A stretch of DNA of 64,000 nucleotides from a virus. How positions within the stretch are numbered: the first letter of the stretch is position 1; every line of letters begins with the position of its first letter. A model generated the notes under the pieces. It saw nothing but the letters and a program-made list of their open reading frames with translations, was not told where the DNA came from and did no database searches. Below are positions 49,201 through 63,567 of the stretch, in pieces. Both the position numbers and the translations under genes were made by a program. The DNA lies in the IMG/VR virus record IMGVR_UViG_3300042878_001497, positions 1 through 64,000 of that record; one strand, 5' to 3'.

Positions 49201-50688
49201 CTATTAATTGATGCCTCGGGAAATACAGGTGAAACATTATATGCTACCAGCTCTTTTATTTATAATCCAACCTTAAATAGATTATCTATTGGGGATGATC
49301 CTAATAGACAAATTTACCTTTGGGGAGGTTCTCCCATTGTAACGGGCAGTACTGCCCTAGGTTTCTTTACTTTAGGAGACAATTCAGGCAATTATAATAC
49401 AGCTGTAGGATATTTTTCTCAAAGAACAAACTACGGTAGAGAAAATACTACTTTAGGCGCTTTTACTTTAGAGCTCCCAGCCGCTGGTGAAAGTGTAGAA
49501 AGTATTAAAAATACTGTAGTAGGATATGGTGCTTTGCGAAATACTGGGGATAGTACAAATACTCTAGCTGTAGCTATAGGATATAATGCATTAGGAACTG
49601 GGGGATCTAATAAAGATATTGCTATTGGTAACAGTGCTTTAATTGCAGGAAATACTGTCCCAGCAGGTACTGGTAAAAATATAGCCATTGGAGATAATGC
49701 AATGGCTGGAGGAATTGCAAGTGATGGTGGTAATAATATTGCTATAGGAACTAGCACTCTCAGTACTCTTTTAGGCAACGTATCTAATAATATAGCTATA
49801 GGTAATTTAGCCGGTAGTAGTGTATCTAGTGGAGCCGATAATGTTTTCTTAGGTGCGGATGCAGGCAGAACTGTATCTACTGGAACTCATAATACTTTTT
49901 TAGGTACTGAAGCGGGGGAACTTGTGACTACAGGTATTACGAATACTTTTGTAGGTAGGAGCGCCGGAGTTTCTTTTACAACAGGTAATAATAATGTTGT
50001 AATTGGTGGGTTTGGTGGAGCTGCTACAGGATATGTTTCACAAAATTCAAATATTTTTATATCAGATGGAGCTGGTCAAGTAAGAATTTTTGCTACAGGT
50101 TCTACAGGTAATATTGGTATTGATACATTTACTCCAGCTTTTAAGGTAGATGTAAACGGTACTTTAGGAGCTGAATTATCTAGTACTTCTGATAATTCTA
50201 ATATAGTATCTTGGAATAGTGCTACAGATGAAGTACAGTACATTCCCAAAATAAGCGTAGATACTAACGCATATAATCCTAGTGGGAGCGGTGGAGTTAG
50301 TGATAAGACTTATCTGGTATTAAATGACGGATACAGTATTGATAACGAGATAGAGTACGGATATTTCGCCCGCTCGTCACTGGTTAACTCTCCTCCTACA
50401 ACCTATACAGTTCTCACTGTCCCTCAAACCACATACCACTCAGTAGTAATAGACTACACAACCTCAGATTCATCTTATGCGTTTACTAGATCGCAAAGGT
50501 TTATTTGTCATTGGGATAACGGTAGTGGTATTTTCTATACTAATTCTGGAGCTCCAGATTTGGGATCTATAAATGCCTCTCATATACTAACTGGTGTTAT
50601 CTCTGCCGGTAATATTCAAATAAGGTTAACTAATTACCTTTCAGGTGGTAGAATTATAGGAGATTATAAGCTCTTTAAGAAAATATAA
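46255..50688 (+). CDS. Large collagen-like tail fibre with beta-roll repeats
   Basis: 1477 residues. The N-terminus (ILRQNTATNTGKGSRLTFTEMDSNLE) is of the tail-attachment type found at the start of phage fibres. Two collagen-like blocks with GTQGIQGITG triplets cover about residues 252-428 and 558-960, separated by a globular domain of about 130 residues. Residues about 1030-1250 hold NTAVGYxS / NTVVGYGAL / NIAIGxxAL beta-roll repeats, and the last 170 residues form a beta-rich tip (YHSVVIDYTTSDSSYAFTRSQRF). Unlike the fibres at the left end of the window it has no S74 chaperone. Expected to be a trimeric, long flexible host-binding fibre. Confidence 0.85.
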   Translation: MAIILRQNTATNTGKGSRLTFTEMDSNLESFYISSSFANNTLILYTTGSVSHSVDLSSFGGNVDSGSFMASASAAGGVITFEKVDGSTFDVTVTNVASASKVNITNTSSSQGYYLVFAEATSGHQDLRADSSIVYNPDSNTLQTANLILTGDLTVQGTRTELQVTELNVEDKLITVASGSTTSAQADGAGIQIAGANQSVTWDHTNSRLKTSTDLGVTGTLNVSTVATDNALTDFVVLAGDGTLKKRTSIVGAQGVQGTTGTQGIQGITGTQGTQGTQGTQGTDGLQGIQGITGTQGTQGITGTQGTQGTQGTQGIQGIQGITGTQGVQGTTGTQGTDGLQGIQGITGTQGVQGITGIQGTQGTQGTQGTQGAQGITGTQGIQGVTGVQGTDGLQGTQGIQGITGTQGTQGIQGTYGVQGVQGVQGTDGSFGGATFDYTFDSTTTSGDPGQGKIRLSNSNENTSTQMYIDDLDDFGNDISSFMQTIDSVTSTVKGYARIANRTDATQYLLFQISNLTDNTGWWTIDITNQASSATSPFTNLEDITISFITTGDKGDTGPQGVQGTTGTQGTNGTQGIQGITGAQGIQGTTGTQGTDGTQGIQGITGTGLQGIQGTQGTNGTQGIQGITGAGTQGIQGTTGTQGNNGTQGIQGITGAGTQGIQGITGAQGTDGTQGIQGITGAGTQGTQGTTGTATQGIQGTQGTTGSATQGIQGIDGNQGIQGTTGTATQGIQGTQGTTGTATQGIQGTTGTATQGIQGTQGTTGTATQGIQGTTGTATQGIQGTQGTTGTATQGIQGTQGTTGTATQGIQGIIGSQGIQGTTGSATQGIQGTQGTTGTATQGTQGTQGTTGTATQGIQGTTGSATQGIQGTQGTTGTATQGIQGIQGTIGTATQGIQGTQGTTGTATQGIQGITGTQGTDGTQGIQGITGGQGTQGTTGTATQGIQGITGIQGTQGIQGPSNPNAISVDIANATGDVEYRSLLIDASGNTGETLYATSSFIYNPTLNRLSIGDDPNRQIYLWGGSPIVTGSTALGFFTLGDNSGNYNTAVGYFSQRTNYGRENTTLGAFTLELPAAGESVESIKNTVVGYGALRNTGDSTNTLAVAIGYNALGTGGSNKDIAIGNSALIAGNTVPAGTGKNIAIGDNAMAGGIASDGGNNIAIGTSTLSTLLGNVSNNIAIGNLAGSSVSSGADNVFLGADAGRTVSTGTHNTFLGTEAGELVTTGITNTFVGRSAGVSFTTGNNNVVIGGFGGAATGYVSQNSNIFISDGAGQVRIFATGSTGNIGIDTFTPAFKVDVNGTLGAELSSTSDNSNIVSWNSATDEVQYIPKISVDTNAYNPSGSGGVSDKTYLVLNDGYSIDNEIEYGYFARSSLVNSPPTTYTVLTVPQTTYHSVVIDYTTSDSSYAFTRSQRFICHWDNGSGIFYTNSGAPDLGSINASHILTGVISAGNIQIRLTNYLSGGRIIGDYKLFKKI

Positions 50689-51586: not shown

Positions 51587-51617
51587 TTGTAGATTCAACT
51601 ATTTATTCTTATATTGT
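51587..51617 (+). promoter_or_regulatory. Bacteroidota-type promoter of the queD/queE operon
   Basis: TTG at 51587-51589, 20 bases, then TATATTGT at 51610-51617. The predicted start falls at about 51620-51623, right at the first base of the structured leader. Confidence 0.62.
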
Positions 51618-51618
51618 A

Positions 51619-51653
51619 TAGGTGTCGTAGCACCACCTTAAAAAAACACTAAT
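51619..51653 (+). promoter_or_regulatory. preQ1-I-like riboswitch candidate (queD/queE leader)
   Basis: Stem AGGT (51620-51623) / ACCT (51635-51638), an 11-base loop GTCGTAGCACC, then an A7 tail and CACTAA up to the ATG at 51654. UAG in the loop (51628-51630) can pair with CUA (51649-51651), forming an H-type pseudoknot. Length, CACC before the 3' strand, and the A-rich tail match class I preQ1 riboswitches. Nearly the same leader precedes folE. A competing hairpin GGTG/CACC (51621-51634) is possible. Confidence 0.55.
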
Positions 51654-51929
51654 ATGGCAAAAAAGCAGTTATTGACTGAACCGGTCCTTCCTAAGGACAG
51701 TATTATCAATCCCGAACTCTACCACAAGGTAAAAGGGACCAATTCTAAGATTGATACCAAGTTTAAGCACTTGGAGAAGATGCCTGATCAAAAATGGCAT
51801 CAAATTATTTCTTTTATTAAATCTGGCGTTCGAATTGTAGGCTACGGAATCATTCCTTTTGATTTGGTAGCAGCTGCAATCGTTCTTATATTTAGTGAAG
51901 TAATCGGTATTATTGAAGAATTAGTATGA
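51654..51929 (+). CDS. Single-pass membrane protein heading the queD/queE operon
   Basis: 91 residues. A charged soluble part (residues 1-50, with KVKGTNSKIDTKFKHLEKMPDQKW) is followed by a hydrophobic C-terminal region (GVRIVGYGIIPFDLVAAAIVLIFSEVIGIIEEL). It overlaps queD by four bases and shares the preQ1-like leader. A transporter for a queuine precursor would normally have more helices, so that role is unlikely. Unknown function. Confidence 0.6.
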   Translation: MAKKQLLTEPVLPKDSIINPELYHKVKGTNSKIDTKFKHLEKMPDQKWHQIISFIKSGVRIVGYGIIPFDLVAAAIVLIFSEVIGIIEELV

Positions 51930-52390
51930 GCACATTTAGATCAACAAAAGTATTTGATGGTTACTCAACAGTATTCCGTCAATGGAAAGCCGAAGGAACA
52001 CACTGCAGATTCCTTCACGGCTATGGAGTAAGTTTAAAAGTATGGTTCGAAGGTGAACTTGACGAACGTAACTGGGTATGGGATTTCGGAGGTATGAAAC
52101 GTGCTACTGGAACTATTGACGGTATGAATCCTAAAGCATGGATGGATCATATGCTCGACCATACTACAATTATTGCAGAAGATGATCCGTATCTTTCTTA
52201 CTTCCAGAATATGTACACAGAAGGTATGATTCAATTACGAGTTATTCCAGCTACTGGAGCAGAGCGTTTTGCAGAGTATTTCTACAATAAACTGAATACA
52301 TTTATTCAAGAAGAAACAGATAATCGTGTTAAAGTAGTTCAAGTTGAATTTCGTGAGCACGAAAAGAACACAGCATTTTATAAAGGTTAA
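51926..52390 (+). CDS. queD: 6-carboxy-tetrahydropterin synthase homologue
   Basis: 154 residues of the QueD/PTPS fold: THCRFLHGYGVSLKVWFEGELDERNWVWDFGGMK, with catalytic Cys27, MLDHTTII (Asp78-His79) and ATGAERFAEYFY (Glu113). It converts dihydroneopterin triphosphate to 6-carboxytetrahydropterin. Two of the three usual zinc histidines are not where expected: FDAAH reads FDGYS and HGH reads HGY (Tyr33), leaving His31 and a nearby His26. This may be a subfamily trait with a rearranged metal site. It starts inside the preceding stop; queE follows two bases later. Confidence 0.85.
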   Translation: MSTFRSTKVFDGYSTVFRQWKAEGTHCRFLHGYGVSLKVWFEGELDERNWVWDFGGMKRATGTIDGMNPKAWMDHMLDHTTIIAEDDPYLSYFQNMYTEGMIQLRVIPATGAERFAEYFYNKLNTFIQEETDNRVKVVQVEFREHEKNTAFYKG

Positions 52391-52392
52391 TT

Positions 52393-53175
52393 ATGCCATT
52401 AGGAAGAATAGAAGATTATAGTAAAGTTCTACCGATTGTAGAGCTTTACACTTGCATCCAGTCAGAAGGCAGCCGTGCCGGCCGTCCTACTGTTGCAGTC
52501 CGTACTACAGGCTGTACCCACCGCTGCTACTTCGGAGAAGGCGGATGGTGTGATAGCTGGTACACTTCAATCCATCCGGAGAAAGGTAAATACACTTTCC
52601 AGGATATTATCAACATTTACGATCAGAATCCTGAAATTAAGGAGATGATGCTGACGGGCGGTTCACCGACCATGCACCCTAAGCTTGTAAATGAACTAAC
52701 TCACTTTGCAAATGAAAGGCAAATTATCATCACAATCGAAACAGAAGGGTCTGCTTTCCTCGAAACAGATCATCCTATTGGGCTTATATCTTTCAGCCCT
52801 AAATTTAGCAACAGCGTGCCTGTACTTGGGACTACTACACCTCTTGGGGATATTGTAGACGAGAAACTTATCAAGACTCACAACCGTTACCGTCTCAATA
52901 AAGAGTCGATTGCTAAGTCAATGACTTACCATTCGGACTACCATATGAAGGTAGTAGTAAACCCAGTGGAGGACCCTCAGACATGGGCAGAGATTAAGTC
53001 TTTCCTAGATGAACTACAGGTACCTAAGCATAAGATTTGGATCATGCCTCCGGGGGATAATCGTCAGGAACTTATCCGAGTTTACCCAGCGGTAATTCAA
53101 TGGTGTACAGACAATATGTACAACTTCACCGGCCGTGAACACATCATTGCTTTTGATACTAAAAGAGAAGTTTAA
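52393..53175 (+). CDS. queE: 7-carboxy-7-deazaguanine synthase (radical SAM)
   Basis: 260 residues. PIVELYTCIQSEGSRAGRPTVAVRTTGCTHRC is a classic QueE start, followed by MMLTGGSPTMHP (SAM-binding GG motif) and IITIETEGSAF. It rearranges 6-carboxytetrahydropterin to 7-carboxy-7-deazaguanine. The cluster cysteines are Cys41, Cys45 and Cys53, a CX3CX7C spacing instead of the usual CX3CX2C, so the cluster loop has five extra residues. The 3' end overlaps a small gene (TAATG). Confidence 0.9.
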   Translation: MPLGRIEDYSKVLPIVELYTCIQSEGSRAGRPTVAVRTTGCTHRCYFGEGGWCDSWYTSIHPEKGKYTFQDIINIYDQNPEIKEMMLTGGSPTMHPKLVNELTHFANERQIIITIETEGSAFLETDHPIGLISFSPKFSNSVPVLGTTTPLGDIVDEKLIKTHNRYRLNKESIAKSMTYHSDYHMKVVVNPVEDPQTWAEIKSFLDELQVPKHKIWIMPPGDNRQELIRVYPAVIQWCTDNMYNFTGREHIIAFDTKREV

Positions 53176-53354
53176 TGTCTTTCGTCATTCTTAAGCATAC
53201 TAGCATCCAAGGAACCCCTCGTACTATCATCGTGAATGATAGCGAGGGTATTGCTATGGAATTTGAATCTGCAGATGCTGCTTTGAAACTAGCAGAGATC
53301 TTTCAAGCCAATACTACCTCAGGAAATATTTACGAAGTAAAACAGTTAAAATAA
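53175..53354 (+). CDS. 59-residue hypothetical protein
   Basis: Starts on the last base of the queE stop and ends on the first base of the next ATG. Product MSFVILKHTSIQGTPRTIIV..., with a later ESADAALKLAEIFQA helix: a small beta-beta-alpha fold of about 60 residues. Fully coupled to the queD/queE operon. Unknown. Confidence 0.6.
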   Translation: MSFVILKHTSIQGTPRTIIVNDSEGIAMEFESADAALKLAEIFQANTTSGNIYEVKQLK

Positions 53355-53527
53355 TGCCACACGGATATCTAGCAAACCTACATCAGTTGTGGGCTCTTGG
53401 CGTTCTTGAGCCAGCAGGCGTTATCGCCGCTATACATCCTTACGGGTACAAACTAAACTACCTTACCTTAAATGGGATCGGAGTAGGAAAAGAAAACGAA
53501 AGGTTTGAGTTCAAGTACAGAGAATAG
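53354..53527 (+). CDS. 57-residue hypothetical protein
   Basis: TAATG junction on the left, TAG at 53525-53527 on the right. Product MPHGYLANLHQLWALGVLEP..., ending ERFEFKYRE. Compact and unrecognised. Gene packing supports translation. Confidence 0.55.
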   Translation: MPHGYLANLHQLWALGVLEPAGVIAAIHPYGYKLNYLTLNGIGVGKENERFEFKYRE

Positions 53528-53529
53528 TA

Positions 53530-53721
53530 ATGACATTAGGACAGGTTATAACAGTAGGAGATGATTGGTACCAGGTTATTAGAACAGTTAGAGAAGGTCG
53601 TGAATGGGATGTTGAACTTCTTAAACAGTACTGGTTTTGTTCGCATACCTTCCGTAAGGATGGTTTACTCTATTTTTGCCGAGCGATTGAAAAAGTTGAA
53701 TTTGAAGAAATAACAGAGTGA
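53530..53721 (+). CDS. Small hypothetical protein
   Basis: 63 residues (MTLGQVITVGDDWYQVIRTVREGREWDVELLKQYWFCSHTF), a beta-barrel-like pattern with Cys and Trp in the centre. Ends in a GTGA overlap with the sugar reductase gene, so it is co-translated with the glycan cluster. Unknown. Confidence 0.6.
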   Translation: MTLGQVITVGDDWYQVIRTVREGREWDVELLKQYWFCSHTFRKDGLLYFCRAIEKVEFEEITE

Positions 53722-54392
53722 TTGCAATACTAGGAGGAACAGGGTTGCTGGGAAAAGAGTTACAAAAGCTAGATTCTTCCTTAGTCTGTACGGGCCGGGA
53801 AATTGATATTACTAACTTTAAAGAAGTCTTCTACTACCTTAATAAAGTAAACCCGGATACTGTAGTCAACGCAGCTGCAATAACAAATTCCATAGAGGTT
53901 TCTGAGAATCCTATTCCTGCTATAGACGTTAATATTATAGGTGCTGCTAATATAGCTAAGTACTGTCAGCAATATGGTAAGAGATTGGTATATATTAGCA
54001 CAGACTACGTCTATCCCGGAACTGGTAACCATGTAGAGGATGATGCTCTATACCCAAATAACGAATATGCGTGGACTAAATTAGGGGGAGAATGTTCTTC
54101 TAGATTGGTGAAAGATCATTGTATAATTCGTACTAGTTTTGGAAGTAGAAAATTTCCTTATCCTGCTGCATATATAAATTTATTTACAAGTAAAGAATAC
54201 GTAGGTGTGCTTGCTCCTCAAATCTTAAAAATTATACAGAGTAAACTTAACGGAATTGTAAATGTAGGAGGTTACAGAAAAAGTTCATATATTTACGCAT
54301 CACAGTACAGCAAGGTTGACAAAATTCAATTAGAACATAGTAAAGATTTTAGCCTAAACACAGCAAAATATAATGAGAATTTCCCAGAGTGA
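53718..54392 (+). CDS. RmlD-like NAD(P)-dependent sugar reductase/epimerase
   Basis: 224 residues starting at GTG. The Rossmann motif GGTGLLGKEL is at the N-terminus; VVNAAAITN and the catalytic YISTDYVYPG and YAWTKLGGE (Tyr-x3-Lys) follow, as in dTDP-4-dehydrorhamnose reductases. It is shorter than RmlD (about 290), lacking part of the substrate domain. First enzyme of a five-gene glycan cluster; it would supply or remodel a deoxysugar. Confidence 0.78.
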   Translation: MIAILGGTGLLGKELQKLDSSLVCTGREIDITNFKEVFYYLNKVNPDTVVNAAAITNSIEVSENPIPAIDVNIIGAANIAKYCQQYGKRLVYISTDYVYPGTGNHVEDDALYPNNEYAWTKLGGECSSRLVKDHCIIRTSFGSRKFPYPAAYINLFTSKEYVGVLAPQILKIIQSKLNGIVNVGGYRKSSYIYASQYSKVDKIQLEHSKDFSLNTAKYNENFPE

Positions 54393-55605
54393 TTCATGCC
54401 CGATAACCGGAACTTCAGAAAGACTTAAGTACTTTTCTCTAGGCGAAATGCCGCTTGTTAATAATCTTGCCGATACTTTAGAAGAATCTTTAACCTGCAA
54501 AAAGATTCCTTTAGAACTAAACTATTTTGCAGAATCAAAACTTACTGCTTTAACTACTTTTGTAGACAGTCAGTCTTTGTTTAGTAACTACCTTTACAAG
54601 TCTGGAGTTAACACTCCCTACATTTCTCATAGTAGAAAAATGTTCAAAGATGTACGGAAGCTCTTACAACTTAAAGACCAGGACCTTATTGTAGACATTG
54701 GAGGTAATGATGGAACACTTCTTAAAACTTTTCGAGAAACTTCTAAAACATCCCTACAGTACCTAAATATTGATGGTTCTGAAAACATCACACAGTACTC
54801 TAAAGAACAGGGAATTAATACACTCTGCGAGTTTTTTAATGAAGATACCCCTACCCGAGTTAAAACTTTAGCCAAAGTTGTTGTATCCACAAATGTTTTT
54901 CAACATTTACAGGATACTAATTCTTTTGTTAGAGGGGTAAAAAAACTTCTACAATCAGACGGTGTATGGGTACTAGAATTTCCGTACTGGCTTCATGATA
55001 TGAAGACCAAGCAATTTGACCAGGTGTACCATGAGCATATGTACTACTACACAGTTACTCCGCTAGTAGCAATGATGCAAAAACACGAGTTGGAAGTTTT
55101 ACGAGTAGTTCCTCAAAAAATACATGGAGGTACTTTGCGTCTAATCATAGGGCATTTAGGAGGTAATCAACACCTAAAAGATAGTAGTGTAGAAGTTTAC
55201 CTAAAGAGAGAATCTAAACTTACACCCAAGTTCTACCAGCAGTGGGGAGCAAAAATTAAACAGCATTTGGTATCCTGTGAGAGTGAACTAAAGTACCTAA
55301 AAGGTAAAGGTAAGACCCTGGTAGGATTTGCTGCAAGTGCTAAGGGATGTGTCTTTCTAAACAGTGCCGGGATAGATTGTAAAGTACTTGATTTCATTAT
55401 CGATGATACTGATATAAAACAAGGCAAATTTATGCCGGGTACCGGACTAGAAATTAAAGGGAGAGGAGATGTAGATTTTGAACAAATTGATTACATTCTT
55501 ATACTCTCTCATAATTTTAGTGATCATATCATAAAAAGTCTTAAAGACGAAGGATATGAAGGTAAGTTTGTTGTGTGTTTACCTTCTTATAAAGTACTAT
55601 CATGA
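54373..55605 (+). CDS. Sugar C-methyltransferase-like protein
   Basis: 410 residues with the three-part plan of TylC3/NovU-type C-methyltransferases: an N-terminal part (CPITGTSERLKYFSLGEMPLVNNLAD, normally zinc-binding with more Cys, so the zinc site may be reduced), a SAM-binding core (LIVDIGGNDGTLL; VVVSTNVFQHLQD; VWVLEFPYW) and a C-terminal domain (GKTLVGFAASAKGCVFLNSAGI). It would methylate a nucleotide sugar made by the preceding reductase. Overlaps its neighbours on both sides. Confidence 0.78.
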   Translation: MRISQSDSCPITGTSERLKYFSLGEMPLVNNLADTLEESLTCKKIPLELNYFAESKLTALTTFVDSQSLFSNYLYKSGVNTPYISHSRKMFKDVRKLLQLKDQDLIVDIGGNDGTLLKTFRETSKTSLQYLNIDGSENITQYSKEQGINTLCEFFNEDTPTRVKTLAKVVVSTNVFQHLQDTNSFVRGVKKLLQSDGVWVLEFPYWLHDMKTKQFDQVYHEHMYYYTVTPLVAMMQKHELEVLRVVPQKIHGGTLRLIIGHLGGNQHLKDSSVEVYLKRESKLTPKFYQQWGAKIKQHLVSCESELKYLKGKGKTLVGFAASAKGCVFLNSAGIDCKVLDFIIDDTDIKQGKFMPGTGLEIKGRGDVDFEQIDYILILSHNFSDHIIKSLKDEGYEGKFVVCLPSYKVLS

Positions 55606-56378
55606 ATTCAATCCCAGTAATAGGAACAGCAATTGTAAACACGCCCTACTGGCTATACCGGCTGATTGCTAGTGTAGACTACCCGGTGGATAACTTTGTT
55701 ATCTTTAATAACAACGGTCGAGGAGAAATCACAGAAGAGCTTGACAATCTAGCTAAACTCTCTCATAAGTTTATTAAGAAAATTACAGTATGCCACTTAC
55801 CTGCTAATCTAGGTGTGCCTGGAGCATTTAACCTTATTATAAAAAGTTATATAAATTCTCCTAGCTGGTTGATAGTAAACTACGATGTAGCTTTTGGACC
55901 AGGCTTCTTAAAAGAGATGGCAGAGAAAGCTTCTGACCCGGAAGTAGGAATGGTACATGGTAAAGCAGGTGATTTTGATTTACCGAGCTGGGATGTATTC
56001 CTAATTAAAGACTGGGTAGTACAGCAGTACGGACTCTTTGACGAAAACTTAACCCCAGCTTACTGCGAAGATGCAGATTATTTTATGAGATTTGTGCATA
56101 GGCCTATAAAAGTAGTAAAGCAGCTAGACAGTATTTATTACCACGGCCCTGGTGTAGATTACTACGAACACGGAAGTCAAACCAAAAAAGGAGAACCTGC
56201 ACTAGCAGCAAAATTAGATCAGGTTAACGAAATAAATTTTGAATATATGTTTAAAAAGTGGGGTGAAGGTTGGAGATGGGTAAACCCACTACCTACACCT
56301 TTTGATATAGAAGGAACTCCTATCTCAACAACTACTTTTGATTTAGAATTTGTACGCAAAAAACATTTAGGCTTTTAA
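55602..56378 (+). CDS. Family 2-like glycosyltransferase
   Basis: 258 residues with a GT-A-type start (IPVIGTAIVNTPYWLYRLIASVDYPVDNFVIFNNNGRG), the acceptor pocket LPANLGVPGAFNLIIK, LIVNYDVAFGPGF (metal site) and PAYCEDADYFMRFV, a typical EDxD motif of rhamnosyltransferase-like enzymes. The donor is probably the sugar from the upstream genes. The acceptor could be a virion protein, host surface or DNA base; sequence alone does not tell. Confidence 0.8.
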   Translation: MNSIPVIGTAIVNTPYWLYRLIASVDYPVDNFVIFNNNGRGEITEELDNLAKLSHKFIKKITVCHLPANLGVPGAFNLIIKSYINSPSWLIVNYDVAFGPGFLKEMAEKASDPEVGMVHGKAGDFDLPSWDVFLIKDWVVQQYGLFDENLTPAYCEDADYFMRFVHRPIKVVKQLDSIYYHGPGVDYYEHGSQTKKGEPALAAKLDQVNEINFEYMFKKWGEGWRWVNPLPTPFDIEGTPISTTTFDLEFVRKKHLGF

Positions 56379-56379
56379 T

Positions 56380-57054
56380 ATGGACGAATATACTTTATAC
56401 GACGCTGAACCGGATTCACAGTGGGGAATCATTACAGGAAATTTAGCACAACACAACCCTCAGCAGAATCCACGATTCTGGGTGGTTGATAATTTTTATA
56501 AGAATCCCGACCAAATTAGGGAGTACGGTCTCTCGCAAGTATACTTTGAGGGGGAAGGAGCAGTGGGTTGGAGAACCCGTAAGCAGTTCCTTTTTGATGG
56601 ACTCAAAGAGCAGTTTGAAAAAATTACAAACAAGAAGATTTTAGATCATACCCCGGAAGGAACCGGCTGGTACGATGTAGGTATTAACGGACGCTTCCAG
56701 GCCTGTGAAGCAGGAACTAAGACGGTATTTCACTGCGATAGCCAGCAATGGGCTGCAGTTCTCTATCTAACTCCAGATGCTCCTCCCCAGAGCGGTACTA
56801 GCTTCTACCGACATAAGGAGACTAAAGTTAGACATAGTTCTGAGATTGCTTGGGGTACCGGGGAAGAACTGGCCACATTTAATCAAAAGACCTTTGTTGA
56901 TCCTACTCCTTTTGAGAGAGTAGATACAGTTGGTAACGTTTATAACAGGCTTGTTATTTTTGATGGAAAGCTTATTCACTCCGGTAATGATTACTTTGGA
57001 TGGGATATTCCTTCTAGCAGGTTCTTTCAAATTTTCTTTTTTGATGTTGAGTAA
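56380..57054 (+). CDS. 2-oxoglutarate/Fe(II)-type oxygenase-like protein
   Basis: 224 residues. The iron triad is seen in VFHCDSQQWAAVLYLTPDAP (His-x-Asp) and LVIFDGKLIHSGNDYFG (distal His), with TSFYRHK between. I associate this pattern with the phage 2OG-like family annotated DUF6445. It would hydroxylate a sugar, base or protein. Situated between the glycosyltransferase and a HAD phosphatase; the gene overlaps the latter by 11 bases. Confidence 0.72.
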   Translation: MDEYTLYDAEPDSQWGIITGNLAQHNPQQNPRFWVVDNFYKNPDQIREYGLSQVYFEGEGAVGWRTRKQFLFDGLKEQFEKITNKKILDHTPEGTGWYDVGINGRFQACEAGTKTVFHCDSQQWAAVLYLTPDAPPQSGTSFYRHKETKVRHSSEIAWGTGEELATFNQKTFVDPTPFERVDTVGNVYNRLVIFDGKLIHSGNDYFGWDIPSSRFFQIFFFDVE

Positions 57055-57409
57055 AGTTTTTTTAATTGACATCGACGGTACAATCTGCGATGATATCAAG
57101 AACGAAGAAAGCCACCTGTACCCGGCCGCTAACCCTTTGCCCAATGCTAGGGATATTATCAATAAATGGTACGATGAAGGTAGCGTAATTACTTTCTTTA
57201 CTGCCCGAGAATCCAAAGATAGAGCAGTAACAGAGGAGTGGCTTCACCGCCACGGTTTCAAGTACCACGGGCTTGTAATGGACAAGCCTAGAATTAAAGA
57301 TGGACAGGAGTATGTCTGGATTGATAACAGGAAAGTTAGAGCAATCACCTATCTTGGTACTTGGTCCGAACTAACAGAAGTAGATGCAAGAATACAAACC
57401 TTTCAGTAA
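57044..57409 (+). CDS. HAD-family phosphatase
   Basis: 121 residues from the ATG at 57044; frames open further upstream belong to the preceding gene region. Motif I is LIDIDGTICDD (two Asp), motif II ITFFTARES, and a later LVMDKPRIKDG and WIDNRK complete the fold. Short HADs of this kind act on nucleotides or sugar phosphates. It overlaps thyA by one base (TAATG), so a nucleotide role is as likely as a sugar one. Confidence 0.78.
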   Translation: MLSKVFLIDIDGTICDDIKNEESHLYPAANPLPNARDIINKWYDEGSVITFFTARESKDRAVTEEWLHRHGFKYHGLVMDKPRIKDGQEYVWIDNRKVRAITYLGTWSELTEVDARIQTFQ

Positions 57410-58404
57410 TGAACAACTTAGATAAAGCATACCAGGCACTCCTACAGGACATCCTAGATAACGGAGTGAAAAAGGAAGACAGAACAGGTACTGGAACTAT
57501 CTCAGTATTTGGTCGTCAAATTAGACATAAAATGTCCGAAGGTTATCCTTTGCTTACTATCAAGAAAATGGCATTCAAGACTATGGTAACTGAGTTACTA
57601 TGGTTTTTGAAAGGAGATACCAATATCAAGTATTTGGTTGAGAATGGATGTAACATATGGACTGGGGATGCTTATAAGAATTATTCAAGTAAAGTTCAAC
57701 CATGGGAACCTCATTCAGATCTGAATCATTTCATTGAACGAATCAAAACTGATGATAAGTTTGCTAAGAAGTGGGGTGAATTAGGTCCAATTTACGGTAA
57801 GCAATGGAGAGCATTTGATGAAGAGGAATGGGGTGGTATAGACCAAATCCAAAACCTAATTAACGACCTCAAAACAAACCCAGACTCAAGACGATTAATG
57901 GTTACAGCTTGGAATCCATCCTATCAGCATCAAATGGTTCTTCCGCCTTGTCATTATGGATTTCAAGTCTATACTCGTGAATTACATTTGGATGAGCGAA
58001 TTGACATTTATAATGGTGATAGAATTCCCATGAATCAAAGTAGCGATTATTTTCACGAGCATATGGATGCTTACGGTATTCCTCGTAGAGCAATCTCTTT
58101 AATGTGGAATCAACGTTCAGTAGATACATTCTTAGGTTTACCTTTCAATATTGCCTCTTACGGACTATTGCTTGAAATGATTGCTAAAGAAGTAAACATG
58201 GTACCTGACGAATTGATTGGTAATTTAGGAGATGTTCATTTGTATTCAAATCACATTGAACAAGCAAAAGAACAAATCACTAGAAAGCCAATGACATTAC
58301 CTACAGTAGAGATAACAGAACTAAATTTGTTGGAAGGTAGTGTATCGGTAGAACTAAAAAATTATATTCACCACGACCCAATTAAAGCACCTTTATCAAA
58401 TTAA
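57409..58404 (+). CDS. thyA: Thymidylate synthase
   Basis: 331 residues from the ATG at 57409, which lies in the TAATG junction; an earlier in-frame ATG would add 16 unrelated residues. Catalytic Cys is in LPPCHYGFQVY; LPFNIASYGLL keeps the Asn that selects dUMP (dCMP hydroxymethylases have Asp there). It has a phage-size insert relative to the 264-residue bacterial enzyme. It makes dTMP for phage DNA. Codon use (GGT, TTA/TTG, AAT) departs from neighbours as in the 41016-43720 block. Confidence 0.93.
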   Translation: MNNLDKAYQALLQDILDNGVKKEDRTGTGTISVFGRQIRHKMSEGYPLLTIKKMAFKTMVTELLWFLKGDTNIKYLVENGCNIWTGDAYKNYSSKVQPWEPHSDLNHFIERIKTDDKFAKKWGELGPIYGKQWRAFDEEEWGGIDQIQNLINDLKTNPDSRRLMVTAWNPSYQHQMVLPPCHYGFQVYTRELHLDERIDIYNGDRIPMNQSSDYFHEHMDAYGIPRRAISLMWNQRSVDTFLGLPFNIASYGLLLEMIAKEVNMVPDELIGNLGDVHLYSNHIEQAKEQITRKPMTLPTVEITELNLLEGSVSVELKNYIHHDPIKAPLSN

Positions 58405-58406
58405 TT

Positions 58407-59000
58407 ATGAAAAAACTAATACTACTATTTTTATTTCCTATCTCGCTGTTTGGACAGCTCCGTGATAGTGTTTACTTTAATAACAACAATTTTATTGTTA
58501 ACTACTCCGAAACCCTAGAAGGACCTCGTTCGATACGTTATACAGTGCTTTGTCCGACCGGCACAGCTTCAAGATCGGGTATGGAGTTCTACAAGGAGAA
58601 AAAGATTCACACCTCAGATCACAAAGACTATGAAGCAAACGAATGGGATAAAGGGCACATGGCCCCCGCGGCATCTTTTAATTGCAATCGTGATATGCTA
58701 TACGGTACTTTCACCTATGTCAATTCTAGCCTTCAACAACAAAGTCTAAATAGAGGAGTTTGGAAAAAACTCGAAGTAAGAGAAAGAGAATTAGCTACAT
58801 CAGGACCAGTACGAGTTTTTATCCGAGTTGAATACCCTACTACTCCTGTTAGAGTTACAACCGGTGCTGCTATACCTTTAGGGTACTATAAGGAAATAAA
58901 AGTTGGAAATAAGAGAGAATGTTACTATTTTAAGAACGTAGCCCCGTCTACTTCGGACTTGGAGGCTTTTAAATGTACTTGCAAAAACGTTATCCAATGA
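58407..59000 (+). CDS. Exported DNA/RNA non-specific endonuclease
   Basis: 197 residues. MKKLILLFLFPISLFGQ is a Sec signal peptide. The active site DKGHMAPAASFN (normally DRGHxAPAxDF in NUC1/Serratia-type nucleases) is about residue 87, with the expected Asn in TYVNSSLQQQSLN downstream. The mature protein would act outside the cytoplasm, for example degrading free or competing DNA. It overlaps the next signal-peptide gene (ATGA). Confidence 0.82.
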   Translation: MKKLILLFLFPISLFGQLRDSVYFNNNNFIVNYSETLEGPRSIRYTVLCPTGTASRSGMEFYKEKKIHTSDHKDYEANEWDKGHMAPAASFNCNRDMLYGTFTYVNSSLQQQSLNRGVWKKLEVRERELATSGPVRVFIRVEYPTTPVRVTTGAAIPLGYYKEIKVGNKRECYYFKNVAPSTSDLEAFKCTCKNVIQ

Positions 59001-59905
59001 AAAAATTACTAATTCTACTAACCCTAGTATTAGGGTTTACCTCAAGTGCATCACACCTCCTAGGAGGCGGTATAGGAGTATTTCAAACCAGTAAAGATTC
59101 TACCTCTGTAGGAGTATGGCTGGTCTCGGATGCTCAAGGGTTTCCAATGCCAAACTCAATCAATGTTGAGAAGTGGGAGATGAACTCGGTAGGATGGTAC
59201 GTTCAAAACGGAGCTATCTCACTCTCTAAAACTACCTCTGCGACCTTCCAAGGACACATCCTTACCAACTATACTTCAGAGTACCTGGATCTAGATTCTA
59301 ATAAGTACCGGTTTATTTATAGGAACTGCTGCTGGGGCATGCTAAGTAATTCTACCAGTTCTATGAACTCAGAATTTATTATTTCAGCTGATTACTGGCA
59401 TATCGCACTTAACTCAACTCCGTACGTTAGACTGCCTTTTATTATTAACCAGCAGACAGGTACTCGCAATACAATGAAACCGATCTGGGGAACAAATGCA
59501 TTCTTAGTTAATCCTGATACCTGGGATAATACGTCCATTACGCAGACAGACCTGCATTCAGGTTATGCTAACGGAGTATTCGTACCTCAAATTCATACTG
59601 AGATTCCTATGTATGTAAGTAATGACAGCATTAGCTGGGTACCTGGTACTCTTGGCAGATACGCAACAGGGTTTGAAATTAAAGATATGCGAAATGGACA
59701 GGTCATTGGCATTCAACGAGCACAGTGGACTTTTCTGGTAGTTCCCTCTACTATAGGTATAGAAGAAAATATTAAAGATTCTCAGACACAGTACCTGGTA
59801 TATGATTGGTACGGCCGGATTGTAGGAGATAAGTCAGAAGGGTTGAAAGGACTTTACGTAGTAAGGTACAGTAACGGTGAAGTAGAAAAAGTACTGTGCA
59901 ACTAA
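58997..59905 (+). CDS. Secreted protein with T9SS-like C-terminal domain
   Basis: 302 residues from the ATG at 58997 in an ATGA overlap. Signal peptide MKKLLILLTLVLGFTSSASH, followed by HLLGGGIGVFQTSKDSTSVGV, the SHxxGG start seen in Bacteroidota surface proteins. The last 50 residues (TQYLVYDWYGRIVGDKSEGLKGLYVVRY) match the pattern of type IX secretion C-terminal sorting domains (vYD..Gr.v.....l..G.Y.v.). If functional, the protein would be moved to the surface of an infected flavobacterial cell. It points to horizontal gain from such a host. Confidence 0.72.
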   Translation: MKKLLILLTLVLGFTSSASHLLGGGIGVFQTSKDSTSVGVWLVSDAQGFPMPNSINVEKWEMNSVGWYVQNGAISLSKTTSATFQGHILTNYTSEYLDLDSNKYRFIYRNCCWGMLSNSTSSMNSEFIISADYWHIALNSTPYVRLPFIINQQTGTRNTMKPIWGTNAFLVNPDTWDNTSITQTDLHSGYANGVFVPQIHTEIPMYVSNDSISWVPGTLGRYATGFEIKDMRNGQVIGIQRAQWTFLVVPSTIGIEENIKDSQTQYLVYDWYGRIVGDKSEGLKGLYVVRYSNGEVEKVLCN

Positions 59906-60303
59906 TCAACACCCACCCGATCAAGAAATCAGACCTAGGCTTCCACGGAAATCTCTTCGGTGGAAAGCTTATGGCCTGGATCGATGCGGCAGCAGCCTCT
60001 TATGCAATGGAGGTGTGTCACAATCGCAGAATGGTTACCGTCTGCATTGATAAGTGTGTGTTTAAGAAGCCTGCAAAGGAAGGGTCTCTGCTAAAGATAT
60101 ACGGGGATACCCTACATATCGGCACTACTAGCGTAACGCTTTACCTGGAAGGAAGAAGCTTTAACGTCTACACCCACGGTGAGGATGTAGTGCTGAGTAC
60201 CAACATTACCTTTGTCCGCATTGACGAAGAAGGAAGTGCTATTCCAATTTCAGATACAGTAAGAGAAAATTTAAAAAAGTATTTAGATGCAAAGTCTATT
60301 TGA
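59896..60303 (+). CDS. Hotdog-fold acyl-CoA thioesterase
   Basis: 135 residues from GTG at 59896. DLGFHGNLFGGKLMAWIDAAAASYAMEVC is the hotdog helix region of YciA-like thioesterases, with VTVCIDKCVFKKPAKEGSLLKIYGDTLHIGTTSVTLYLEG completing the sheet. It would hydrolyse acyl-CoA or a similar thioester. Uncommon in phages; overlaps the secreted-protein gene by 10 bases and the HPRT gene by 17. Confidence 0.78.
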   Translation: MQLINTHPIKKSDLGFHGNLFGGKLMAWIDAAAASYAMEVCHNRRMVTVCIDKCVFKKPAKEGSLLKIYGDTLHIGTTSVTLYLEGRSFNVYTHGEDVVLSTNITFVRIDEEGSAIPISDTVRENLKKYLDAKSI

Positions 60304-60799
60304 TATTAAAGAGATCGAAATCCAGACTAAAATCCTTGCCAAGAAGATTTCAGCTGAACACCAAGGAGACAAAACTCCCGTTGTAATGGTAGGACTGTTG
60401 AACGGAGCATTTATGTTCTATGCAGACCTGGTACGCAATATGGGCATTGATGTGGAATGTGACTTCATGAGAGTTAAAAGCTACACAGCCCAGTTCAAGC
60501 AAGGAGATATTAAGATTATTAAAGATCTCGAGACTCCTATCAGAGGAAAGCACGTGTACCTGGTAGACGATATCTACGATACCGGCTCTACTATGAAAGC
60601 ATTAATTGAGTACCTAGAGGTAAAAAAGCCCGCCTCTATCTCAATTGTAACTCTACTCCGTAGAGAAACCTCTCCAATCCCGGATCAAGCCTTCTACAAG
60701 TACCATGCATTCACCATCAAGGATGAATGGGTAGTAGGATTTGGAATGGATGACGAAAAAGGTTATTCAAGAAATCTCAATGGAGTATTTGCTCTGTAA
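60287..60799 (+). CDS. hpt: Hypoxanthine/guanine phosphoribosyltransferase
   Basis: 170 residues. The PRPP loop VYLVDDIYDTGSTM is clear, preceded by VVMVGLLNGAFMFYADLVRNM and DFMRVKSYT, as in type I HPRTs, and followed by WVVGFGMDDEKGYSRNL. It salvages hypoxanthine or guanine with PRPP to IMP/GMP, which could feed the GTP needed by FolE just downstream (inference). Confidence 0.85.
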   Translation: MQSLFDIKEIEIQTKILAKKISAEHQGDKTPVVMVGLLNGAFMFYADLVRNMGIDVECDFMRVKSYTAQFKQGDIKIIKDLETPIRGKHVYLVDDIYDTGSTMKALIEYLEVKKPASISIVTLLRRETSPIPDQAFYKYHAFTIKDEWVVGFGMDDEKGYSRNLNGVFAL

Positions 60800-60819
60800 G
60801 AGAAGTTTTCGTATATTAA
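60788..60819 (+). promoter_or_regulatory. Bacteroidota-type promoter of folE
   Basis: TTTG at 60788-60791, 20 bases, then TATATTAA at 60812-60819, inside an exact TTTCGTATATTA (60807-60818). The predicted start coincides with the first bases of the structured leader. Confidence 0.62.
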
Positions 60820-60821
60820 AC

Positions 60822-60858
60822 AAAGGTGTTCGAAGCACCACCTTAAAAAAACAATTAT
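60822..60858 (+). promoter_or_regulatory. preQ1-I-like riboswitch candidate (folE leader)
   Basis: Stem AAGGT (60823-60827) / ACCTT (60840-60844), a 12-base loop GTTCGAAGCACC, then A7, CAATTAT and the ATG at 60859. It shares GGTG, GCACCACCTT and the A-rich tail with the leader at 51619-51653. The stem-loop, CACC and A-tail order fits class I preQ1 riboswitches; the pseudoknot here (GTT 60828-60830 with AAC 60850-60852, or only G-C) is less clear than in the other copy. Confidence 0.52.
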
Positions 60859-61569
60859 ATGGCAGATAAAAAACGTTATGATGTAGAGTTAGCTCAAGCC
60901 GGCTTTGCCAACGGTATTTCCTCTCAACTGGCAGAGAAATTTAACATGCATAAGATGAACGATATCTCTCTTACCGAACAAGAGAAATACGTTATTATTG
61001 AAAGAGCAGCTAAAGCATTCGGTGAGTTTCTCGATGCATTAGGAGTTGATTGGAAGAACGATCCTAACTCTTCAGATACTCCACGTCGTGTAGCAAAAGC
61101 TTATGTAAACGATTTATGGTACGGCCGATTCAATCCTATGCCTGCTATCACAGCCTTCCCTTCAGATGGTTACGACGGCATTGTATTTGAAGGAAATATT
61201 CCTTTGACTTCGATGTGTTCACATCACCATCAGACCATTACCGGTCGAGTTCATATCGGCTACATCCCCTCTAAGGACGGAAAGGTAATCGGGCTTTCTA
61301 AACTGAATCGTATTGTAGAGCATTTCGGCCGTCGAGGAGCTATTCAGGAGCAGCTTACTGTTGCTATCCATAACGCAGTTGATACTGTGTGTGAAGGTAA
61401 CCTTGGAGTAGCTGTAATGATTGAGGCAGGTCATAACTGTGTATCATGCCGAGGCACCAAGCACGCCGGTGCATCAATGAAAACATCAAAGCTTTCAGGC
61501 AGCTTCCTTGAAGAAGATTCAGCCCGTGCAGAGTTTTATGAATTTGTAAAAGGATACGCATGCAAGTAA
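60859..61569 (+). CDS. folE: GTP cyclohydrolase I
   Basis: 236 residues. Zinc and active-site motifs are complete: TSMCSHHHQTITGRVHIGYIP (Cys120, His123), GLSKLNRIVEHFGRR and AGHNCVSCRGTKH (Cys194/Cys197). It opens GTP to dihydroneopterin triphosphate, the first step of the preQ0 route. The N-terminal 60 residues are family-typical helix. It is followed by a MazG-like protein (overlap 10 bases) and then dpdA in the same operon. Confidence 0.92.
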   Translation: MADKKRYDVELAQAGFANGISSQLAEKFNMHKMNDISLTEQEKYVIIERAAKAFGEFLDALGVDWKNDPNSSDTPRRVAKAYVNDLWYGRFNPMPAITAFPSDGYDGIVFEGNIPLTSMCSHHHQTITGRVHIGYIPSKDGKVIGLSKLNRIVEHFGRRGAIQEQLTVAIHNAVDTVCEGNLGVAVMIEAGHNCVSCRGTKHAGASMKTSKLSGSFLEEDSARAEFYEFVKGYACK

Positions 61570-62054
61570 AATTTGTTGACGAAGTAGAACTATTTAATTC
61601 TACCTTCGGTAAGCCGAATAACTACACCCCTATCATTCCTAATGATAAGAAGCTTACAGACTTTGTTGTTAACTTTATTAAAGAAGAAACCGATGAACTC
61701 GCCGAAGCAATCGAAAATAAAGACATCGTGGAAGTGTTGGATGCTATTTGTGATCTCCTGTATGTTGCCGTGGGCAATGCTACTATGGTCTTTGGCCTCA
61801 AAGATAAGTTAGAGGCAGCTTACGCTGAGGTACAGGCATCGAATATGTCTAAGAGCTGTGAGACCTACGATGAAGCAATGGAAACTATCGATGCTCATTA
61901 TAAAGACCATGGTACTTGTTACACTCGCCAGGTGGGAGATCGATGGGTTGTATACCGTGAATCGGACGATAAGGTAATGAAGTCAATCAATTACTTTGCT
62001 CCTAACCTAGAGCAATTTTTTACCGAAGAAGAAATTAAAAACTCCAAGCAATGA
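61560..62054 (+). CDS. MazG-like nucleotide pyrophosphohydrolase
   Basis: 164 residues. The all-alpha NTP pyrophosphatase signature is seen in IKEETDELAEAIENKDIVEVLDAICDLLYVAVG (EExxE, then ExxD spacing), residues about 38-75. The C-terminal half (YTRQVGDRWVVYRESDDKVMKS) is a small beta domain. MazG-like enzymes hydrolyse (d)NTPs or (p)ppGpp and are common in phages. Here it lies in the folE-dpdA operon. Confidence 0.78.
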   Translation: MQVKFVDEVELFNSTFGKPNNYTPIIPNDKKLTDFVVNFIKEETDELAEAIENKDIVEVLDAICDLLYVAVGNATMVFGLKDKLEAAYAEVQASNMSKSCETYDEAMETIDAHYKDHGTCYTRQVGDRWVVYRESDDKVMKSINYFAPNLEQFFTEEEIKNSKQ

Positions 62055-62239
62055 CACCCCAGCAGCTAATCGATCAAAATAAAACCTTCTCAGAAGAGTT
62101 GCAGCAATGGATTGTACCTCTTATCTTTGTAGACGAAGCTCTTCAGATGAAAACTGCCCAGGATGTAGATGCTAGTATGAAGAGACTTGAAGAAGTAATG
62201 CAAGACCTCAACACAGTAATTAGCAAGATAAATGATTAA
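62051..62239 (+). CDS. Small helical protein
   Basis: 62 residues (MTPQQLIDQNKTFSEELQQWIVPLIFVDEALQMKTAQDVDASMKRLEEVMQDLN), one long helical hairpin. ATGA overlap with the MazG gene and eight bases of overlap with dpdA. Possibly a partner protein of one of them; no family recognised. Confidence 0.65.
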   Translation: MTPQQLIDQNKTFSEELQQWIVPLIFVDEALQMKTAQDVDASMKRLEEVMQDLNTVISKIND

Positions 62240-63062
62240 AATTGCCCATGAGTCTCCAAAAGCTATTTTTAAAGAGATTCAAGAACTTACCGACTACGAC
62301 TACGCTCTAGTTCACCTCTTTGAAGAGGATCCTGAATACCTTCAGAAGTTTAAGGATGCTCTGGCAGCCGGCCGAGAAGTTATTCTAGATAATTCTATTT
62401 TTGAGTTAGAAGAAGCTTTTGATGCTAATCGTTTTGCTTACTGGATTAACGAACTTAAGCCAACCTGGTACATCGTTCCTGACTCGTTAGAGAATGTAGA
62501 GAAGACTATGTCTAATATGGCAGAATGGAATATACACTATGCTGATAAAGTTCCTGCAGAATGTAAGAAGATTGGAGTAGTACAGGGAAAGACTTACTCT
62601 CAGATAGTCAATTGCTACGAATACATGGTCAGTATAGCCGAAGTAGATATGGTGGCAATCTCTTTCGATTACAGTTATTTCCAAGAGAAATTCCCTCATC
62701 CTAACAAATACGTTAGCTGGATGCTAGGCCGGGTACAGTTGCTAGGTCGAATGCTTAAAGACGGAGTTATTAATCCTGACGTACCTCACCACCTTTTAGG
62801 TTGCGGACTACCTCAAGAGTTTCAATTCTACCGAGAGGCTAAGTACGATTGGATTTACTCCCTAGATACTTCCAATCCTGTGGTTCACGGACTGAAGGAG
62901 ATTTACTACAAAGACCAAGGACTGTGGAATAAAGAATCTCAGAAGCTCTTTACCATGATTAACTCCGAAGTTACGGAGAAGCAAATGGAGGTCATTCGTC
63001 ATAATGTTTCACGCTTTAGATGGTTTGCAAATGGAAACGCGCCCGTGGGTAACATTCTTTAG
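62232..63062 (+). CDS. dpdA: DNA guanine transglycosylase (TGT-like)
   Basis: 276 residues. The TIM-barrel signature of tRNA-guanine transglycosylases is present in reduced form: VILDNSIFELEEAF (Asp53, base-binding), YIVPDSLENVEKT (Asp84), IGVVQGKTYSQIV (QG motif, 118-119), HHLLGCGLPQEF (GxGxP loop) and IYSLDTSNPVVHG (Asp212 as likely nucleophile). No tRNA-binding zinc domain follows, as expected for DpdA, which exchanges guanine in DNA for a 7-deazaguanine. With FolE, QueD, QueE and QueC in the same genome this is the insertion enzyme. Subfamily not assigned. Confidence 0.82.
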   Translation: MIKIAHESPKAIFKEIQELTDYDYALVHLFEEDPEYLQKFKDALAAGREVILDNSIFELEEAFDANRFAYWINELKPTWYIVPDSLENVEKTMSNMAEWNIHYADKVPAECKKIGVVQGKTYSQIVNCYEYMVSIAEVDMVAISFDYSYFQEKFPHPNKYVSWMLGRVQLLGRMLKDGVINPDVPHHLLGCGLPQEFQFYREAKYDWIYSLDTSNPVVHGLKEIYYKDQGLWNKESQKLFTMINSEVTEKQMEVIRHNVSRFRWFANGNAPVGNIL

Positions 63063-63567
63063 TCAGACAGGTTCTGAGATCGTTCAGATCTCGGAAGCTC
63101 TAGGGCGGTGGCCGGATATGATTATTAGTAATCGCCGACCGACTGATGCTAGAATTATTAGTCCTGCTCTTCCTAAAGATCGTCTGTACTTTACCTCCAA
63201 TAAGCCAGAAGCTTACGAATACTTACATTATCTCCGTCAGGCAAAAGATCCGATTGTAACTCTACACGGATGGCTTAGAGTACTTCCTGAAGAGGTTTGT
63301 GACAGTTACGAAGTTTACAACGGTCATCCAGGTTTGATTACCCGCTACCCTGAACTGAAGGGTAAAGATCCTCAGATGCGAGCTTTTGAAGGAGATTATA
63401 ATACTGGTGGTTGCGTGATTCATAAAGTAACTCCCGGAGTAGACGAAGGAGAGATTCTAATGGAAAAAGAAATTAGCATTAGACTGTTGGATCTTGACGG
63501 ACTATTCCGTACATTACATAAGACTTCAGTCAATATGTGGATTGAATTCCTTAAAGAACGTCTATGA
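63031..63567 (+). CDS. Formyltransferase (PurN-like; DpdN candidate)
   Basis: 178 residues from the ATG at 63031, overlapping dpdA by 32 bases; an earlier in-frame ATG at 63004 is possible. The 10-formyltetrahydrofolate-dependent active site is seen in EVYNGHPGLITRYPELKG (Asn97, His99) and HKVTPGVDEGEIL (Asp138), the Asn-His-Asp set of GAR transformylases. It lacks an obvious purine-ribonucleotide context. Lying on dpdA, it is a strong candidate for the proposed dPreQ1 formyltransferase (DpdN), giving a formylaminomethyl-deazaguanine in DNA. Confidence 0.78.
   Translation: METRPWVTFFSQTGSEIVQISEALGRWPDMIISNRRPTDARIISPALPKDRLYFTSNKPEAYEYLHYLRQAKDPIVTLHGWLRVLPEEVCDSYEVYNGHPGLITRYPELKGKDPQMRAFEGDYNTGGCVIHKVTPGVDEGEILMEKEISIRLLDLDGLFRTLHKTSVNMWIEFLKERL

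Follow-up and report, generated by a model that had tools for sequence, protein, structure and literature searches.

Class I preQ1 (preQ1-I) riboswitches are the described systems closest to a short leader that occurs twice in a 64,000-nucleotide (nt) stretch of phage DNA, here called the window, which comes from the IMG/VR record IMGVR_UViG_3300042878_001497 (complete record 173,415 bases). The virus infects bacteria, its host probably being a flavobacterium, and one copy of the leader precedes its queD/queE operon, the other its folE gene. Type II preQ1-I riboswitches (Rfam family RF00522; the aptamers of T. tengcongensis (Tte) and B. subtilis) have a P1 helix, an A-rich third loop (L3) ending in C and downstream preQ-pathway genes, all as in the phage leaders. 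The Tte aptamer has a loop of 10 nt, against 9 nt in the phage leaders. Type II and the phage leaders also share AC before the 3' strand of P1, UC being the sign of type I (PMC11625349, a review), and C, G and C are conserved in the phage loop at the positions that we equate with the C7-G11-C30 ceiling of Tte described there. The phage leaders differ in having a P1 of mostly 4 base pairs (bp) instead of 5 and a loop of 9 nt instead of the 11-14 nt of the bacterial members compared; moreover, they do not conserve a UAG-CUA helix, have no Shine-Dalgarno sequence in the platform and stay below the gathering score of RF00522. Type III (E. coli; Eco) resembles them in being very compact, in having AC at the specificity base and in acting on translation, and the Eco aptamer is called the smallest naturally occurring preQ1 aptamer in PMC10622847. 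In type III, however, the loop is rich in pyrimidines and the variable tail is longer, with an AAGG Shine-Dalgarno sequence that contacts preQ1, and the gene regulated is yhhQ in gammaproteobacteria; the phage leaders instead combine UCGNAG loops with a short A-tract and lack a Shine-Dalgarno sequence.

Riboswitches are called rare in phages in PMC9004378. The glutamine riboswitch of phage Melnitz and its relatives described there is likewise carried by a phage, but it belongs to another ligand class and lies at a tmRNA gene, not on a modified-base pathway. A literature search on preQ1 riboswitches, covering few subscription papers and no preprint server, found none in a phage among the papers listed; the word 'phage' is absent from the preQ1 review (PMC11625349), the word 'riboswitch' from PMC6884629, and in the Seurat paper (PMC4342423) riboswitches occur only in a reference. 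Comparison of the sequences suggests that the leaders are, with high probability, a compact class I preQ1-type riboswitch that would turn down folE and queD/queE by blocking initiation. A narrower reading, to which we give about an even chance as a whole, is that they form a phage-specific preQ1-I subtype, among the smallest metabolite aptamers, which would sense the precursor of the phage's own modified base (preQ0, preQ1 or another 7-deazaguanine) without a Shine-Dalgarno sequence, and that the A-tract completing its pseudoknot would at the same time be the adenine-rich ribosome-recruiting element of Bacteroidota.

On direct reading of the sequence the two copies lie at 51621-51647 and 60825-60852, about 9.2 kb apart, and consist of the following parts (window coordinates, strand, description):
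51621-51624, plus strand: leader 1, 5' strand of P1, GGUG (sequence, covariation)
51625-51633, plus strand: leader 1, 9-nt loop UCGUAGCAC, 51633 being the presumed specificity C (loop conservation)
51634-51637, plus strand: leader 1, 3' strand of P1, CACC (sequence, covariation)
51638-51647, plus strand: leader 1, A-rich third loop UUAAAAAAAC with the conserved C at its end
60825-60828, plus strand: leader 2, 5' strand of P1, GGUG (sequence)
60829-60838, plus strand: leader 2, 10-nt loop UUCGAAGCAC, 60838 being the presumed specificity C
60839-60842, plus strand: leader 2, 3' strand of P1, CACC (sequence, covariation)
60843-60852, plus strand: leader 2, A-rich third loop UUAAAAAAAC with the conserved C at its end

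P1 could be extended by a fifth pair, A51620-U51638, in leader 1 and by A60824-U60843 and A60823-U60844 in leader 2. The spacing between GGTG and the paired CACC is 9 nt in copy 1 (51621) and 10 nt in copy 2 (60825), and in both the start codon follows 6 nt past the C that closes the A-tract. An exact 17-mer, GCACCACCTTAAAAAAA, is common to the leaders (51630-51646 and 60835-60851). With up to three mismatches allowed, the two leader sites are its sole matches within the window; shuffled windows contain 0.33 matches on average, and two matches were reached in 4 of 100 shuffles. The earlier note, made from the letters of this DNA, had described a shared GGTG, a common sequence, an A-tail and a nearby ATG at both segments, all of which are borne out. 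The leaders of relatives were first read from the 80 best folE relatives, unfiltered, and a model termed R1 was built from 23 distinct leaders, picked by a script that required P1 pairing and including the two window copies. Over the entire record R1 matches these two leaders, both part of its training set, and nothing else. A third match to the search pattern (record position 165920, 2 mismatches), which sits at codons 2-6 of an open reading frame (ORF) of 418 amino acids (aa), was dropped.

P1 pairs in 100% of the cells of the 23-leader alignment, a figure that is partly circular since these leaders had been selected for pairing, and 16 cells are changed on both sides. Pairing was not required in a degenerate pattern run on viral contigs, which allowed mismatches at the outer and third P1 pairs and yielded 119 matches, 77 of them distinct, in 114 viral stretches. 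All 77 are Watson-Crick at both places: the outer pair is G..C in 18 and A..U in 59, the third A..U in 12 and U..A in 65, and no other combination occurs. A looser pattern that left the first and third pairs wholly free found at least 120 stretches; together with the earlier loci this gave 134 loci and, among those listed, 93 distinct matches, 84 of which have a preQ-linked gene within 2.6 kb. Among these listed preQ-linked matches the outer pair is Watson-Crick in 82 of 84 (58 AU, 16 GC, 8 UA) and the third, with two pair types, in 84 of 84. Five of the remaining nine are paired and stand at a contig end or before an ORF of a 197-aa type; the other four (L309, L313, L314 and L315) are chance matches in phages, none of them Watson-Crick at both pairs and one wobble-capable. 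These four are in the looser-pattern count and were taken out before a final set of 101 distinct leaders was counted, from which six chance loci and the leaders near locus ends had first been removed.

In the pattern behind the 101 leaders, the second and fourth pairs were set to G..C, most letters of the loop were prescribed, and the A-tract with its C had to be present. In this set the outer pair is Watson-Crick in 99 and the third in all 101. P1 usually has 4 bp, with a fifth pair in 7/101, and the loop, consensus UCGNAG-N-AC, measures 9 nt in 100 leaders and 10 nt in one. The 3' strand of P1 is preceded by AC in 100/101 and by UC in 1/101, the pattern allowing just A or U before the C. A tail of at least 9 nt is found in 6/7 leaders with a fifth P1 pair versus 2/89 without (Fisher p 2e-7, kinship ignored; n=96); such coupling would follow from an A-tract lying along P1 in the manner of L3 in preQ1-I. 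The nucleotide past the conserved C is A in 95/96 leaders. Covariation that owes nothing to a pairing requirement thus gives a helix P1 enclosing the ligand loop, the specificity C lies directly before its 3' strand (AC or UC), and the A-tract with its length coupling corresponds to an A-rich L3 that runs along P1 and ends in C. The contact of the loop G with the C past the A-tract is invariant, and so outside the reach of covariation. The preQ1-I-like topology proposed in the earlier note is therefore supported by P1 covariation, P1/L3 length coupling and conserved loop positions, and the compensatory changes in relatives for which it had asked were found. Of the two window copies, only copy 1 has the UAG and CUA letters that it had read there as a possible pseudoknot.

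Most of the leaders stand before preQ-linked genes. At E up to 1, R1 was run on three sets of 84, 80 and 80 sources and gave 53, 8 and 100 matches, respectively; these 161 matches represent 76 distinct 80-nt leaders. The first gene 3' of these encodes a small membrane protein in 35 cases, folE in 30, queD in 3, queE in 2 and something else in 6; on these viral contigs 70 of the 76 leaders thus lie directly before folE, queD, queE or the membrane protein that heads the queDE operon. Two of the six others precede the 197-aa ORF, which is followed by the membrane protein, queD and queE, one precedes the start of an ORF resembling it and then the contig end, and for two the contig stops less than 70 nt further on. 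The sixth (L236) precedes folE2 (PF02649, 1.6e-25), a non-homologous family for the folE reaction. That a leader is retained there argues for a switch tied to the reaction and not to one protein family. At another folE2 locus, L326, the leader is of the UC type, scores lower (20.7 bits, E 0.32) and lies some 35 nt upstream of the matched start; the other folE2 relatives, at most 78 of 80 having usable upstream DNA, show no R1 match before folE2, and no leader was seen in the folE2 upstream region of L227, which was read separately. The degenerate pattern agrees: 71 of its 77 distinct matches lie directly before the membrane protein (46), folE (20), queD (3) or queE (2), and of the other six, contig ends truncate three, while in the remaining three the 197-aa-type ORF comes first. 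Where the membrane protein is missing the leader precedes queD, or in two loci directly queE, and where an extra ORF is inserted the leader is kept at the head of the queDE operon. Because the leader precedes the membrane protein, queD, queE, folE or folE2 depending on the locus, its placement points to control of the pathway, not of a single gene, and the link to preQ0/preQ1 genes and the position at the start codon, both anticipated by the earlier note, hold across the leaders compared.

In 257 billion bases of bacterial and archaeal genomes the degenerate pattern matched twice, antisense inside ORFs of 560 and 618 aa; the DNA read around them holds no preQ genes, and both matches were dropped. 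So far the element has been seen only in phages, by a pattern scan, as opposed to a model scan, of cellular genomes. Among cultured phages, Flavobacterium phage immuto_3-5A, the sole immuto record tested, has one R1 copy, before folE, which makes the element testable in infection. Separately, the exact 18-mer GCACCACCTTAAAAAAAC occurs in 17 stretches, five of which carry the preQ-type leader and twelve another sequence family. These twelve viral stretches (L004-L006, L009-L012, L015, L016 and L018-L020; e.g. L005:2388-2465) have a possible larger H-type pseudoknot, in which GGTGG would pair with CCACC and TTAGTTT with AAACTAA.

Comparison with Rfam yields both likeness and distance. Of all Rfam families, RF00522 matches leader 2 best (21.8 bits, E 0.0075 in a 91-nt stretch). 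Twenty leader-carrying records of our choice gave 38 listed weak RF00522 matches, 6 of them on a leader and 32 elsewhere by our conversion of coordinates; the six, at 9.8-21.8 bits, comprise two in the window's record and one each in G001, G002, G003 and G014. A 19.8-bit match at record position 119428 was set aside, being a hairpin in AT-rich DNA upstream of a 127-aa ORF where R1 finds nothing. An Rfam scan of six loci (E up to 1), and one of L296-L298, returned no riboswitch match. Rfam alone would not have been sufficient to name the element. For comparison we took nine bacterial RF00522 members that score above threshold and come from 5 of 199 genomes in the same phylum as Ruminococcus bromii; by our count they have a P1 of 5 bp and a loop of 11-14 nt. 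R1 gave no match on bacterial RF00522 members (17 loci). Since R1 misses bacterial members and RF00522 misses the phage leaders at threshold, the element is best described, from these models, as a compact preQ1-I variant and is not filed as a member of RF00522 as curated.

Several results weigh against a riboswitch of this class. No Rfam match reaches the gathering score in the window (39 bits for RF00522), so the covariance-model check put forward in the earlier note gave a match, but one below that score. With leader 1, RF00522 scores only 10.2 bits (E 6.6, 91-nt stretch), third of three matches by bits, and it exceeds the gathering score in none of the 20 leader-carrying records, the best value being 21.8 bits. 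UAG-CUA pairing is possible in 9/101 leaders, below the mean of 22.9 for shuffled tails. P2 as a canonical helix is thus not supported in the leaders compared, and an upper helix would have to be minimal or non-canonical. Neither copy has a single-strand fold of unusual stability (z -0.76 and -0.96), and the covariation counts ignore the relatedness of the leaders. Moreover, many relatives lack the element: 49 of the 80 best folE relatives have no leader before folE (31 have one), and 75 of 80 queD relatives have no R1 match in the fetched DNA; in many of these leaderless queD relatives we read a thioredoxin-like gene upstream of queD. Finally, Cellulophaga phage phiST and Chryseobacterium phage MA9V-3 have folE and queE without the leader, R1 staying at noise level (up to 18.2 bits).

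A promoter-like motif precedes both leaders:
51610-51615, plus strand: TATATT, promoter-like, upstream of leader 1 (sequence)
60812-60817, plus strand: TATATT, promoter-like, upstream of leader 2 (sequence)

TATATT lies at most 26 nt upstream in 90/101 leaders versus 5/101 in the preceding stretch and a 1.1% background. A promoter just upstream of the leaders is therefore likely, and its closeness suggests that the transcript would start at or near the aptamer; scans for sigma-70 promoters and terminators found nothing at either leader. The predicted transcription start at each segment thus survives as a likely nearby promoter. In the window, 5 of 62 long ORFs have a Shine-Dalgarno core ahead of them, less than the background of 18%, and adenine is common at -13 to -10, -6 and -3, which fits a Bacteroidota host. 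In F. johnsoniae, according to PMC6847099, initiation is high where adenines occupy -14 to -11, -6 and -3, and is reduced by structure close to the start codon. The conserved C ending the A-tract lies 6-9 nt before the AUG in 75/101 leaders, so a ligand-locked L3 would hide the initiation adenines. The riboswitch that we envisage near the 5' end of each phage mRNA is a compact one of the class I preQ1 type, most like type II. In it preQ1 or preQ0, as a 7-deazaguanine product, would pair with the last C of the loop and sit between P1 and a minimal upper helix, formed by the conserved G of NAG and the C past the A-tract. The ligand would lock the pseudoknot and bury the A-tract, 8-14 nt before the AUG, so that loading of the 30S subunit would be blocked and folE and the queD/queE operon turned down as the product accumulates. 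No Shine-Dalgarno sequence would be involved, the A-tract being about where Bacteroidota mRNAs use adenines for initiation.

Three other explanations were weighed. Phage translational repressors act via small conserved hairpins at the start codons of few co-regulated genes, and the leader, a small hairpin abutting co-regulated start codons, resembles such a site; it might thus be the operator of a phage RNA-binding repressor that coordinates the preQ0 genes with no small molecule bound, a reading with which the lack of a conserved UAG-CUA helix agrees. We consider this unlikely, since the likeness to RF00522 at the presumed pocket positions, the AC or UC before the 3' strand of P1 and the coupling of P1 to the A-tract would be unexpected in an operator. 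It is less likely still that the leader is a ligand-free 5' untranslated region, or an inverted repeat serving as a DNA operator, that has spread with its promoter: the TATATT upstream of 90/101 leaders would suit it and an inverted repeat could be a DNA site, but the letters of the repeat change in compensating pairs while the loop is fixed and asymmetric, and the 71 of 77 pattern matches directly before preQ-linked genes, the rest being cut short or having one inserted ORF, are confined to such genes, so that the leader does not serve unrelated promoters. Least probable is a functional hairpin of GGUGU with the first GCACC that leaves the second CACC unpaired with GGUG, which is the minimum-energy structure of both copies and in that respect speaks against the riboswitch fold, but which pairs in 76% of cells of the 23 leaders without a compensatory change, against 16 cells changed on both sides for P1, and is incomplete in leaders of the GGAG and UGAG groups; as an idea, it could be the unliganded alternative in the GGUG group.

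On the narrower reading, the virus would use product feedback during infection to control the chemistry that modifies its own genome. Ligand binding would mean that class I preQ1 riboswitches reach a form more compact than the bacterial members compared, that a phage exerts product-feedback control over the bases with which it modifies its DNA, and that a defined riboswitch platform exists for bacteria that do not use Shine-Dalgarno sequences.

The genes concerned are, by window coordinates unless stated otherwise:
45031-45906, plus strand: queC (PF06508, 6.5e-38; ORF)
51654-51929, plus strand: small membrane-like protein, 91 aa, first gene past leader 1 (ORF; overlaps queD)
51926-52390, plus strand: queD, 6-carboxytetrahydropterin synthase-like (PF01242, 8.5e-15; phrog_2389)
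52393-53175, plus strand: queE, 7-carboxy-7-deazaguanine synthase-like (PF04055; phrog_2076, 1.4e-47)
60859-61569, plus strand: folE, GTP cyclohydrolase I (PF01227, 9.2e-44; phrog_2197)
62232-63062, plus strand: DpdA-like protein, 276 aa, putative DNA guanine transglycosylase (71% identity to an immuto protein annotated as DpdA)
64703-64930 of the record, beyond the window: queF

The phage thus encodes the pathway to preQ1 (queC, queD, queE, folE and queF) together with a DpdA-like protein, and within its record the leader is found only on the queDE operon and folE; the queC stretch has no R1 match. Some phages with such genes have 7-deazaguanines in their DNA, with dPreQ1 in Streptococcus phage Dp-1, as stated in PMC6884629. 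Since this phage codes for the preQ pathway and 7-deazaguanines are known in phage DNA, feedback by a preQ1 or preQ0 product is plausible. The 91-aa membrane-like protein has no Pfam, PHROG or NCBIfam match and none in cultured phages; its relatives, of 61-107 aa and ending in ...SFIKSGIRIxGY...SEIVGIxEELV, lie between leader and queD in many phages. A fold model of the DpdA-like protein, built with three sequences, is of low confidence (predicted local distance difference test, pLDDT, 60.5), and the PDB structures most like it are pyruvate kinase and other barrels, weak tRNA-guanine transglycosylase (TGT) entries also being among the top rows. Relatives of the DpdA-like protein with 37-40% identity, mostly unannotated, occur in 14 Campylobacter phage records; PMC6884629 mentions dADG-rich Campylobacter phages. 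The surroundings of folE (59896-63567) encode a thioesterase-like protein, a hypoxanthine phosphoribosyltransferase (TIGR01203, above cut-off), a PRA-PH/MazG-like hydrolase and a PurN-like formyltransferase, which has a counterpart beside dpdA in phage immuto. Finally, positions 46255-50688 encode a 1,477-aa, collagen-like protein with long GTQG/GIQG repeats, perhaps a tail fibre.

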